A stretch of DNA of 38,274 nucleotides, taken from NCBI GenBank assembly GCA_902590655.1, contig CACIXQ010000007.1:1-38274 (forward strand), given 5' to 3'. This stretch comes from an uncultured marine group I thaumarchaeote. Lineage in GTDB: Archaea; Thermoproteota; Nitrososphaeria; Nitrososphaerales; Nitrosopumilaceae. The notes under the pieces were generated by a model that saw only the letters and a program-made list of their open reading frames with translations, ran no database searches and had not been told where the DNA came from. Every line of letters begins with the position of its first letter. The stretch's first letter is position 1. This document shows, piece after piece, positions 14,561 through 19,316 of this stretch. A program made the translations under genes and the position numbers.

Positions 14561-15559
14561 TTATTCAGTAGAATCAGGCCACATCATTTTTCGCATTTGT
14601 TTTCCAACTTGCTCTATTTGATGTGAATCTAATTGCTTCATATATTTATCAAATGCTTCCTTCCCACTTTTTTCATATTCGCTTAGCCATTCTTTATTGA
14701 ATGTTCCATCCTGTATTTGATTTAGAACTTTTTTCATCTCTTCTTTAGTTTGTTTGTTCATAACCATTGGACCACGTGTTAGACCACCGTATCTTGCAGT
14801 TTCACTTACACGTCTCCACATTCCATTAATTCCGTATTTCTGAATCATATCAACAATAAGTTTCAATTCATGTAAAACTTCAAAATATGCAATCTCTGGT
14901 TGGTATCCAGCTTCAACTAATGTTTCAAATGCATTAACGACCATAGAAGCAGAGCCACCACAAAGATCTGCTTGTTCACCAAACCAATCTGTTTCAACTT
15001 CTTCCTTGAATGTTGTCTTGATTAAGCCAGCACGTGCACTCCCAATTCCTTTGGCAATTCCAAGTGTTCTATCCCATGCTGTTCCAGTTTTATCTTGTTC
15101 TACGGCAACAATTGATGGCGTTCCAAAATTATCAAGATATGTTTCTCTTACCTTAGAACCTGGACCCTTTGGTGCAACCATGATGATATCAACATTATCA
15201 GGTGCTTTTATCCATCCCCAATAAATTGCAGCAGCATGTGAAAATGCTAATGCATTACCATCAGAGAGATTTGGTTCTATCTCATCCTTGTAAACTTTTG
15301 ACTGAACCATATCAGGAATTAAGATGTGTATGATGTCAGCCTTTTTGCAAGCTTCTGCGACAGATAATACTTCATGCCCATCATTCTTTGCCTTATCCCA
15401 GCTAGCACCACCTTCCTTTAGTCCAATTATCACTTTGAGACCTGAATCTTTGAGATTATTTGCCTGTGCATCTCCCTGAATACCATACCCTATGATTGCT
15501 ATCGTTTGATCCTTGATTGGATCCAAACTAATATCAGAATCTTTCCAAGTTTGTGCCAT
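14561..15559 (-). CDS. ilvC: Ketol-acid reductoisomerase, class I
   Basis: The 332-aa enzyme catalyses Mg2+-dependent alkyl migration and NAD(P)H reduction of 2-acetolactate/2-aceto-2-hydroxybutyrate in valine, leucine and isoleucine synthesis. The N-terminal Rossmann domain has GYGIQGDAQANNL (G24 onward; most relatives have GYGSQGHAHA), and the cofactor loop reads GLKEGGASW. The C-terminal knotted domain has the metal-binding segment DWFGEQADLCGG. Length fits the short class I form. A TATA element (15582-15590, read on minus) is centred 27 nt before the ATG, so ilvC has its own promoter although the zinc-ribbon ORF ends immediately upstream. Confidence 0.96.
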   Translation of the reverse strand: MAQTWKDSDISLDPIKDQTIAIIGYGIQGDAQANNLKDSGLKVIIGLKEGGASWDKAKNDGHEVLSVAEACKKADIIHILIPDMVQSKVYKDEIEPNLSDGNALAFSHAAAIYWGWIKAPDNVDIIMVAPKGPGSKVRETYLDNFGTPSIVAVEQDKTGTAWDRTLGIAKGIGSARAGLIKTTFKEEVETDWFGEQADLCGGSASMVVNAFETLVEAGYQPEIAYFEVLHELKLIVDMIQKYGINGMWRRVSETARYGGLTRGPMVMNKQTKEEMKKVLNQIQDGTFNKEWLSEYEKSGKEAFDKYMKQLDSHQIEQVGKQMRKMMWPDSTE

Positions 15560-15739: not shown

Positions 15740-16657
15740 TTAATTGATTTTTCCACTGCCTATTATTCGTACGCTAGTTGATTCTGGCCTTATGAGAAGA
15801 CAAATATCATTTTTCTTACAGATTATTGGTTTTTCCAATGTTAACTTGAATGGAGATATTGATGAAATTTTTGCTGCTTTTATTTGAAGCCCAATGTTAA
15901 GAAGACACATTTGGTTATCAGAAATTTTTTCCTTATAATATGGCGACTGATTAAATGTAATCAACAATTCAGTTTTGACTTCTAATGAATCATCAATTGT
16001 GAGAATATCGCCCCTTTGAATTTCGTCTGGTTTAATTCCTTTTAATGAAAGTCCAACTCTGGCAGGACAAACTGCCTCTTTCATATCGTCATCATGCATC
16101 TGAATAGATTTTATCATAACTTCAGAGCCAGTTGGTAAATGTTTTAGTTTATCATATTGCTTAATTGTCCCCTGTAATATTTTACCCAACACTACAGTTC
16201 CAACCCCCTTGACATCAAAACAGTGATCTATCACAATTTGTATTGGACCATCATTTGTTATCGGAACAAAACTAGATAATTCCTGCTTGATACTGGGCGA
16301 ATCAATTTTTTTATAATTTTTCAAAACTGTTCCTTTGATCATAGAATTGAATTGATTCTCATCAACTTCGTAAGAATGACTAATGATACCATCACTTTTT
16401 CCTAGCATATCTAATGCAATAATTTGTTCACCAACATACCTATCAAGCGATGCAACATAGAAAATCACATACTCTGCAATGTTTATAGCCTGTAAAAGCG
16501 GTTGAATTTTTTCTGGGAACCCATTTGGGGCAATCCATGTTCGAATGATATCAGATTCCTTCTTATCATAAAGTGTAAGATCAGTACTGGTACCTTTTTT
16601 ACCAAAATCATTTGCAATTGTCTGCTCACCTAATACAACAAAATTGATCGATCTCAT
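15740..16657 (-). CDS. EF-Tu/SelB-like translation factor with degenerate GTPase domain
   Basis: The 305-aa protein keeps the EF-Tu fold order. Residues 1-125 look like a G domain, with EF-Tu-like GEQIIALDMLGKSDGIIS, followed by a clear EF-Tu domain 2 (about 135-225: DVKGVGTVVLGKILQGTI, then PARVGLSLKG and IQRGDIL) and a domain-3-like barrel. The G domain lacks a proper P-loop (the expected position reads GEQTIANDFGKKGT), the DxxG motif and the NKxD motif, and is about 60-70 residues short. It should therefore not hydrolyse GTP in the usual way. It resembles SelB-like/EF-1A-like paralogues; it is not canonical EF-1A or aIF2-gamma. The zinc-ribbon gene follows. Confidence 0.8.
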   Translation of the reverse strand: MRSINFVVLGEQTIANDFGKKGTSTDLTLYDKKESDIIRTWIAPNGFPEKIQPLLQAINIAEYVIFYVASLDRYVGEQIIALDMLGKSDGIISHSYEVDENQFNSMIKGTVLKNYKKIDSPSIKQELSSFVPITNDGPIQIVIDHCFDVKGVGTVVLGKILQGTIKQYDKLKHLPTGSEVMIKSIQMHDDDMKEAVCPARVGLSLKGIKPDEIQRGDILTIDDSLEVKTELLITFNQSPYYKEKISDNQMCLLNIGLQIKAAKISSISPFKLTLEKPIICKKNDICLLIRPESTSVRIIGSGKIN

Positions 16658-16728
16658 GTTAATTCACATAATTCCTAAACAAATAATGTTTGTGTGTTTG
16701 ATATTTGATTATCATACTGTTTTACCAC

Positions 16729-16758
16729 TATGATCTAGATCATAATTATTTTTTTATA
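16729..16758 (+). promoter_or_regulatory. 16-bp perfect palindrome plus TATA box upstream of membrane micro-ORF
   Basis: TATGATCTAGATCATA (16729-16744) is a perfect 16-bp palindrome. Six nucleotides later comes a strong TATA element TTTTTTATA (16750-16758), centred 27 nt before the ATG at 16782. A symmetric site touching the BRE region is a plausible operator for a dimeric regulator. The remaining gap 16658-16728 up to the divergent EF-Tu-like gene shows nothing else I can name. Confidence 0.55.
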
Positions 16759-16781
16759 CCCCTAAATTGCGTCGCTAAATT

Positions 16782-16862
16782 ATGGGAATGAACAAAAAGG
16801 GAGCTGCAATTGCCATTGGTATAATTGCCTTCATAATTTGTATTGGTGTAGGTAGCGGATAG
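16782..16862 (+). CDS. 26-aa hydrophobic membrane micro-ORF
   Basis: The ORF runs from ATG 16782 to TAG 16860-16862. It begins MGMNKKGAAIAIGIIAFI and ends ICIGVGSG: a short positively charged N-terminus followed by one transmembrane helix and a glycine-rich tail, probably N-in. It sits at leaderless distance behind a strong TATA box and next to a 16-bp palindrome. The coding region is isolated, with intergenic DNA on both sides (16658-16781 and 16863-16906). No function is known to me. Promoter quality and composition support it as a real expressed peptide. Confidence 0.6.
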   Translation: MGMNKKGAAIAIGIIAFIICIGVGSG

Positions 16863-16906
16863 TATTATCACTGTTTGACTATTCAACAACAGAATACTTG
16901 TTGATT

Positions 16907-17677
16907 TTATGGAAATGAATTGAGAACTTTAGCATAACTTACAAAACGATGGTTTTTTGGTTTTACCATTGTTTGTACATATTTTGTTATTGTCTTTCCA
17001 TAGGCTCCCTTGTAGCCAATTGGTGCTATTACCCAATTCCATTCATGTGCTAAACGTAAAACATCATCATATGGACTGTAATAATTTCGAATTTTTGTAG
17101 AAATGATTTTTTGCATAAAAGAACCGTTACTAGGACTAAATGAATCAGCAGGGATAGAGCCTCCAAAAAGATAGACTGCTTTTATAATTCCATTATTTTT
17201 TGCGTTTTTTGCAAGGTTTTTTACAGTGCTTTGAATCACGTGTGCACCAAGTGAATGCCCAACTAAACGAATGTTAGTGTTGGGACTTCTTCGTTTAAAA
17301 TCAATTACAAACTTGGCTAAATTTCTTCCATTTTTATTTGCGATAGTTATACCAGTGTATAACGCTTGAAGTGCATATGAAATGTATTGTGCACCAGATG
17401 TGTTTGAATCATAACTGTAACCTATTACAGGATGTTTGTATCCGAGTTTTGTTAACCTTCTTTTTGCAATTACAAATTTTGCTAGTGCACCAGATGAGTT
17501 ATTCCTTAATCCATGAACAATTATAGTGATTTCCTTTGATCCAATCATCCTCTCAAACTCTTTTTTTGGATACAAATGGTATGAATCATGATTAATTGTT
17601 GTTCCTGAATAAAGATCATAAAATCCTCTAGTAGATATACGTGGAAAAATTTTTTTCAATTTAGTTATGGTCTCCAA
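16907..17677 (-). CDS. Alpha/beta-hydrolase (lipase/esterase-like)
   Basis: The 256-aa protein has the nucleophile elbow G140-H-S142-L-G-A-H, preceded by a core strand and oxyanion region ITIIVHGLRNNS (about residues 50-61). Likely acid and base residues are in YSPYDDVLRL and the C-terminal PKNHRFVSY. There is no signal peptide, so it is likely cytoplasmic. The fold and the serine nucleophile are clear, but the substrate is not; the closest resemblance I see is to DUF726/lipase-class hydrolases. Its start overlaps the metG 3' end by 17 nt on the same strand, which suggests co-expression with ahcY-metG. Confidence 0.8.
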   Translation of the reverse strand: METITKLKKIFPRISTRGFYDLYSGTTINHDSYHLYPKKEFERMIGSKEITIIVHGLRNNSSGALAKFVIAKRRLTKLGYKHPVIGYSYDSNTSGAQYISYALQALYTGITIANKNGRNLAKFVIDFKRRSPNTNIRLVGHSLGAHVIQSTVKNLAKNAKNNGIIKAVYLFGGSIPADSFSPSNGSFMQKIISTKIRNYYSPYDDVLRLAHEWNWVIAPIGYKGAYGKTITKYVQTMVKPKNHRFVSYAKVLNSFP

Positions 17678-19316
17678 GTTTTGATTTCTGTTCCTCTATG
17701 ATTGATTCTTCCACTTTTTCAAATAATGGAGAAACTGAACCTAACTTGTGATTCTGTTTTAGTGCAATATTTGAAATTTCAGCAAAGCCTTGTGTTGAAA
17801 CATCTCCGTCCAATCCAAGCTGTGACCAAATTTTCTGTGATGACTCTGGCATGAATGGATAAATTGCTATTGCCAAACTTCTGACTGCATTAACTGATAA
17901 GAAAACACAAGAATTGGTTCCTGGACCATTTTTCCATGGTTCCTTATGCTGAAAATATTGGTTAAAGTGAGCAGAAAACTGTAATATTTTTTTTAATGCT
18001 CTGTCAAGGTGATTTCCCTCCATTAGTGCACTGAGATCTGATGTAAGTTCATTGATCATTTTTTCTGATTCCCTATCCATGTTATCAAAATCCTCAGGAT
18101 TGGGAACAACTGCATCAAAAGATTTTACAGTAAAACCAAGCGCACGGTTAACAAGATTACCAAGATTTCCTATCAGCTCTGAATTAATTTTTGTTGCAAA
18201 TTCATCCCAGTCAAAGTTAAGATCATCCTGTGAGTATGGATTTATTGAAACAAGATAAAATCTTAGATAATCTGCAGGAAAAATTTCTAAAAATTCTTTT
18301 AGACCAATATACCAATTTCTGCTCTTTGAAATTTTCTTTGATTGTAATGTAAGGTGACCTCTAGTTGGAATATAATCAGGAAGTTTGTATTCCTCATTAA
18401 TTCCTAAACGCATTGCAGGTAAAAACAAATAATGATGATATACTATATCCTTGCCAATAAAATGATAGATGTCTGATTCGTTCCAAAAGTTTTTTCCATC
18501 TTTACCATTATCATTTAGAAATTTTATTGTTGATGAAATGTATGCAAGATGGTTATCAAACCATCCATAGAATACTTTTTCCTTTTCACTATCAATTGGA
18601 ATTGGAATGCCCCAAGATATGTCTCTAGTTATGTCCCAGTCAGTTAGACCCTCTTTGATCCAGTTCTGGACATATTTTTTTACATCTTTTTGAAGATTGT
18701 TGTTGCTATCAAGGTATTCAGCTAGTTTATTTGAAAAATTTTTCAATTTGAAAAAGTAATGTTTTGTTTTTTCCTTAACTGGAGTCTGTCCACAAATTGA
18801 GCAACGTGGATCCTTAATTTCATCTGGAACACGACCACATTTTTCGCATAGATCAGAGTATTGATCATCAGCATTACAGTATGGACATATCCCAATTACA
18901 TACCTATCAGGCAAAAATTTCTTGTCGGTATTACAATAAAGTTGTATAATTTCATTTTCATAAATATGTCCACCCTCCTCAAGTTTTTTGAAAACATCTT
19001 GTACAAACTGTTTATTTTCTGGGGAACTAGTTTTGTAAAAAAAGTCAAATTTGATGTTAAATGCTTCAAAATCTTCAAGATCACGTTTATTCCAATGTTC
19101 AACATAATCTTCAGGTGTCTTCCCTTCTTTTTCTGATTGTATTAGAATAGGGGTACCAAAATCATCAGATGCGCATATGTAATATACCTCAACGCCTTTT
19201 TGCCTTAAAAATCGAGTTGTAATATCAGCTGGTAGATATGTTGATGCAACATGGCCTAAATGGATTTCTCCATTTGCATATGGCAGTGCGCTTGTGATAA
19301 TTGCCTTTGAATTCAT
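17661..19316 (-). CDS. metG: Methionyl-tRNA synthetase
   Basis: The 551-aa class I synthetase charges tRNA-Met. The HIGH motif appears as H19-L-G-H22 in NGEIHLGH, and the KMSKS motif as KKISKS (about residues 324-329). The zinc-binding insert has four CxxC knuckles between about residues 143 and 182 (CPYC, CEKC, CSIC and a leading C). The C-terminal anticodon-binding helical domain is present, but there is no appended tRNA-binding domain after it, as in other short archaeal forms. ahcY is 33 nt upstream on the same strand, which links SAM recycling with methionine use. Confidence 0.96.
   Translation of the reverse strand: MNSKAIITSALPYANGEIHLGHVASTYLPADITTRFLRQKGVEVYYICASDDFGTPILIQSEKEGKTPEDYVEHWNKRDLEDFEAFNIKFDFFYKTSSPENKQFVQDVFKKLEEGGHIYENEIIQLYCNTDKKFLPDRYVIGICPYCNADDQYSDLCEKCGRVPDEIKDPRCSICGQTPVKEKTKHYFFKLKNFSNKLAEYLDSNNNLQKDVKKYVQNWIKEGLTDWDITRDISWGIPIPIDSEKEKVFYGWFDNHLAYISSTIKFLNDNGKDGKNFWNESDIYHFIGKDIVYHHYLFLPAMRLGINEEYKLPDYIPTRGHLTLQSKKISKSRNWYIGLKEFLEIFPADYLRFYLVSINPYSQDDLNFDWDEFATKINSELIGNLGNLVNRALGFTVKSFDAVVPNPEDFDNMDRESEKMINELTSDLSALMEGNHLDRALKKILQFSAHFNQYFQHKEPWKNGPGTNSCVFLSVNAVRSLAIAIYPFMPESSQKIWSQLGLDGDVSTQGFAEISNIALKQNHKLGSVSPLFEKVEESIIEEQKSKLGDHN

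Follow-up and report, generated by a model that had tools for sequence, protein, structure and literature searches.

The window analysed here is the whole of contig C7 (38,274 nt) of a 74%-complete genome assembly from an uncultured marine group I thaumarchaeote, and the genome-wide counts given below cover 413 kb of 911 kb. Four genes run along the minus strand in this part of the window: KARI (14561–15559), a protein with EF-Tu domain 2 (15740–16657), an alpha/beta hydrolase (DUF726/DUF900-like; 16907–17677) and metG (17661–19316), which the hydrolase gene overlaps. Between the second and third of these, on the plus strand, lies a micro-ORF of 26 aa (16782–16862, stop TAG) encoding MGMNKKGAAIAIGIIAFIICIGVGSG, divergent from the EF-like gene and convergent with the hydrolase gene. 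The interval 16658–16906 is without any other gene, in agreement with the first-pass annotation, which had called the locus otherwise empty. Among the neighbouring genes there is none for a membrane complex that could point to a partner of the peptide.

The divergent neighbour encodes a 305-aa protein that carries EF-Tu domain 2 (PF03144, E 6.4e-15), weakly matches the eIF2-gamma C-terminal domain, and has no GTPase domain detectable in Pfam. It is described here as a putative SelB/EF-like protein whose G domain is degenerate or missing, and it occurs in most genomes of the genus.

The ATG at 16782 does open a single-helix peptide, as had been proposed. One transmembrane helix is predicted at about residues 8–24 (hydropathy 2.76 over these residues), and across the orthologues described below the hydrophobic stretch covers 17–18 residues with a mean hydropathy of 2.7–3.0. 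Two lysines (K5 and K6) precede the helix, its N-terminal half carries a run of small residues (G7, A8, A9, A11 and G/A13), and C20 is invariant. By the positive-inside rule, the peptide is predicted to be oriented N-in/C-out. In the 413 kb, the micro-ORF is the most hydrophobic among the few intergenic ORFs of 20–59 aa with a TATA-like box at leaderless distance, and the combination of ORF and TATA box exceeds chance.

Evidence that the ORF is translated comes from the close relatives. When 100 relatives were searched at the DNA level, the locus turned up in G024, G011, G010 and G030 (a further match, in G055, proved to be an unrelated 28-bp stretch in other sequence), and the peptide stands at the same place in these four other species of the genus, as MGMNKKGAAIAIGIIAFIICIGVGSG, identical in the source genome and G024, and as MGMNKKGAALAIGIIAFIICIGLGSG, MGINKKGAAVAVAIIAFIICIGLAG and MGINRKGAAIAVAIIAFIICIGLAN. 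Over codons 2–24 the variable columns number 3, 3 and 13 at the first, second and third codon positions (13/19 at the third; hypergeometric P = 2.6e-4), and for the more distant pairs dN/dS is 0.03–0.32 and pN lies well under pS, in a test that comprises five sequences only, two pairs of them near-identical. Constraint is not uniform, since both differences between G010 and G030 within codons 1–24 are nonsynonymous. M1 rather than M3 is the start, because M3 is replaced by I in two species. All five copies end in a stop codon (TAG, TAG, TAA, TAA and TGA), and the frame beyond the stop is not conserved; on this ground, and because the stop codon itself changes, readings of the ORF as what is left of a longer, truncated protein or as a case of stop readthrough were rejected. 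Judged by its codons, the micro-ORF is a real protein-coding gene maintained by evolution, and with fewer than 50 residues, one hydrophobic helix and a coding sequence under selection its predicted product would belong with the small single-pass membrane proteins. The first-pass annotation had named a lack of conservation in close relatives, of peptide or palindrome, among the grounds for refutation; the peptide withstands this check and the palindrome, as described below, does not.

Upstream of the ORF, comparison of the five genomes reveals a conserved 21-bp promoter box (16738–16758), GATCAT(G/A)ATTATTTTTTTATA, made up of an upstream element and a TATA box, TTTATA (16753–16758). The box is identical in the four orthologues (GATCATGATTATTTTTTTATA) and differs by one substitution in the source genome; further upstream, identity between the two subclades falls to about half. 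The TATA box starts at −29 from the ATG, and from its end to the ATG there are exactly 23 nt (16759–16781) in all five genomes; within this spacer only 10–11 of the 23 positions agree between subclades. A fixed length with a diverged sequence is what would be expected of a leaderless promoter and transcript. The arrangement, with TATA some 22–30 nt upstream of the start codon and no room for a leader, is the one expected of leaderless archaeal genes; in the source genome, the stretch at about −33 to −26 from the start codon is richer in TATA-like boxes than the rest of the upstream sequence, and this likewise fits leaderless genes. Transcription is therefore predicted, from this spacing, to start at or next to 16782 and to yield a leaderless mRNA. 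Orthologues, codon pattern and promoter spacing together support the earlier idea that a single-helix membrane peptide has a leaderless micro-gene dedicated to it. The 413 kb of source genome contain no other copy of the promoter box at up to 3 mismatches, and a regulon sharing it was rejected, as the other matches in the genus, at 2–3 mismatches, have no similar peptide behind them.

The palindrome that had been read as an operator fares differently. A perfect 16-bp palindrome, TATGATCTAGATCATA, does lie at 16729–16744 upstream of the TATA box. Of the distances first given for these elements, that from palindrome to TTTATA is corrected from 6 to 8 nt (or 4 nt, counting all of the TTTTTTTATA run) and that from the TATA end to the ATG to the 23 nt above. 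The symmetry is perfect only in the source genome, with 8, 5, 4, 1 and 0 of 8 pairs kept in the source genome, its sister G024, G011, G010 and G030, respectively; what is conserved is its 3' part, GATCAT, which belongs to the promoter box. Perfect palindromes of at least 16 bp number 10 in 413 kb (about 1 per 41 kb), three of them in the window. Allowing up to 3 mismatches, the motif was found once in the window, near the 0.50 expected from shuffled sequence, and in the source genome it gave 18 matches per strand against 11 for the reversed-pattern control; the genome count is not far above control, and there is no clear excess of related sites. On conservation and background counts the “palindromic operator” of the first-pass annotation was rejected, its “tightly controlled” gene is likewise not supported, and the palindrome is probably a coincidence without a role kept by evolution. 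That it might be a genuine repressor site acquired by the source species alone, as could be suggested by so perfect a symmetry a short way before a TATA box that is conserved, is improbable given the loss of symmetry already in the sister species, the genomic frequency of such palindromes and the lack of a clear excess of related sites.

Downstream of the ORF, folding predicts a stem-loop (16883–16904; 7-bp stem, 8-nt loop, then a short T run) that is a candidate terminator between the convergent genes. A stem of other sequence is found at the same place in G010 and G030, and the predicted fold of G011 lies elsewhere (predicted folds in this comparison range from −5.2 to −11.2 kcal/mol).

Promoter, ORF and stem-loop lie in a segment of 253 bp (16658–16910) that is either present or precisely absent. 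The order KARI, EF-like gene, hydrolase, metG is kept in 7/7 close genomes checked, except that the contig of G030 ends short of KARI. From the EF-like start to the hydrolase end there are 249–259 bp in five genomes and 0 bp in G004 and G026, in which the hydrolase stop overlaps the EF-like start as ATGA; no copy of the peptide is found elsewhere in the assemblies of G026 (94% complete) or G004 (81% complete). The gene is dispensable, because these two relatives carry the bare junction instead, and so sharp a presence or absence among close relatives offers a natural experiment on how genes are gained and lost. With outgroups as root, the tree of the EF-like protein has G004 as its first branch (support 92) and places G026 with G010 and G030 (94), a group also recovered in the concatenated gene tree (99). 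Accordingly, either the segment was gained after the split of G004 and lost in G026, or it is older and was lost twice; as the neighbours differ in less closely related members of the genus, the direction is given here as alternatives.

The EF-like gene of G026 (contig C7) differs by 1–3% from that of G010 (contig C1) for most of its length, whereas the divergence between the same two genomes is about 9–20% in metG and in most of the hydrolase gene. We take the low divergence as a sign of recent homologous exchange near the missing segment. The identical junction in G004 and G026, along with this apparent exchange, is also compatible with an ancestral empty allele that spread by recombination. 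A tentative scenario, which we hold to be possible but not probable, is de novo birth of the gene within a single archaeal clade. In it, a stretch of some 250 bp bearing its own promoter, the ORF and a possible terminator came to lie between two genes that overlapped, became fixed as a coding gene, and in G026 was afterwards lost or replaced through recombination. If true, this would be an instance of archaeal gene birth that can be dated.

Alternatively, what is conserved could be chiefly regulatory DNA or RNA, namely a divergent promoter segment serving the EF-Tu-like gene, with the ORF incidental. The two genes that overlap by ATGA in G004 and G026 are held apart by the segment, which by parting the EF-like gene from the metG–hydrolase run should give that gene a promoter of its own; the 21-bp box, moreover, is conserved at the DNA level. 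Against this, the codon-position pattern, a stop maintained through three different stop codons and the fixed spacing from TATA to ATG all point to a translated ORF on the plus strand, and we consider a mainly regulatory segment quite unlikely.

Beyond this clade, a search of 300 genomes of the order yielded no homologue of the peptide, and the order-wide profile search returned, besides the true orthologues, only weak partial matches (best E 0.034), many of them within longer frames, which we have taken as chance. The sole match in a search of GTDB contigs was G024's own contig (AG-426-M08). Nothing useful came from one exact DNA pattern in IMG/VR, from tblastn against phages and plasmids, or from PDB and Rfam searches with the micro-gene; Pfam gave no match to the peptide even at E 10, and none of the papers searched joined Nitrosopelagicus, possibly the genus concerned, with “small membrane protein”. 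Within the databases covered, the sequence family thus appears new and undescribed, although single-helix microproteins as such are a known kind.

The best reading is that the gene is young, dispensable and leaderless and encodes a membrane microprotein, which probably acts on a membrane partner. The promoter (box at 16738–16758) would direct transcription at or next to the ATG, the ribosome would translate the 26-aa peptide from the leaderless mRNA, and the peptide would insert as one helix with its lysine end in the cytoplasm and its C-terminus outside. Its small-residue face could then bind a larger membrane protein laterally, and a small accessory or modulatory partner is, we infer, its most likely role. 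We regard it as probable, by a modest degree, that the locus is a protein-coding leaderless micro-gene of one clade of a Nitrosopumilaceae genus whose membrane peptide binds a larger membrane protein.

A peptide of this kind might instead act conditionally on the lipid bilayer itself, as a stress-type or type I toxin-like peptide that depolarises the membrane or slows growth under the control of an antisense RNA or repressor. Bacterial type I toxins are small, single-helix and patchily distributed, and the archaeal peptide resembles them in size, in its single helix and in its clean presence or absence among close relatives. However, in a leaderless design an antisense RNA has no ribosome-binding site that it could block, no clear TATA box is seen by eye on the other strand across the 3' part, Rfam gives no match, no copy is found in phages, in plasmids or elsewhere in the genomes, and the operator needed for tight repression is not conserved. 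We hold a toxin-like peptide to be unlikely.

Residues K6, G7, A8 and A9 fit the class III signal-peptide consensus of archaeal pilins, K-G-A-A followed by a hydrophobic helix as in pilins and archaellins, and a mini-pilin would be cut after G7. Yet prepilin peptidase (PF01478) was found in 0/31 genomes of the genus against 12/14 control genomes, and the peptide has neither a head domain nor, even at E 10, any Pfam match; an archaeal type IV pilin-like protein is on these grounds rejected, and a mini-pilin is hardly tenable.

A membrane microprotein with a protein partner has known counterparts. KdpF, CydX, AcrZ and MgtS are bacterial single-helix small membrane proteins of about 25–50 aa with short soluble ends, and the archaeal peptide is like them in size range, single helix, soluble ends and proposed mode of partner binding. 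Unlike them, each of which is encoded beside a known partner complex or has a link to one, it has no partner nearby, and it has no sequence relatives outside one clade of the genus. Among archaea, MtrI (PMC12774963) and MtrR (PMC13370731) of Methanosarcina mazei are small proteins reported to act on an energy complex of the membrane. They too are described as unannotated, lineage-restricted products of archaeal small ORFs, but they are shown to work on their complex, whereas for the peptide described here we infer the function.

Genes this short escape annotation, and comparative evidence alone indicates that marine ammonia-oxidising archaea, with genomes of about 1.1 Mb, keep leaderless micro-genes for membrane peptides.

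As a separate observation, a second TATA-preceded single-helix micro-ORF of 35 aa, MKNGKGWFIAMAITVTLVYTGFITLIPWHDGNWWF, lies on the minus strand of another contig of the source genome (G000:C6:23486-23590; locus L118:1501-1605). It has no Pfam match of its own, and matches to it occur in 12 other genomes among the 201 searched in the order. In the source genome, G126, G240 and G219 it is convergent with, and adjoins, a gene for a CorA-type Mg2+ transporter (an assignment tested with PF01544 in the source genome and G219), and because it does so in all four genomes checked, its position suggests a CorA-linked membrane microprotein.
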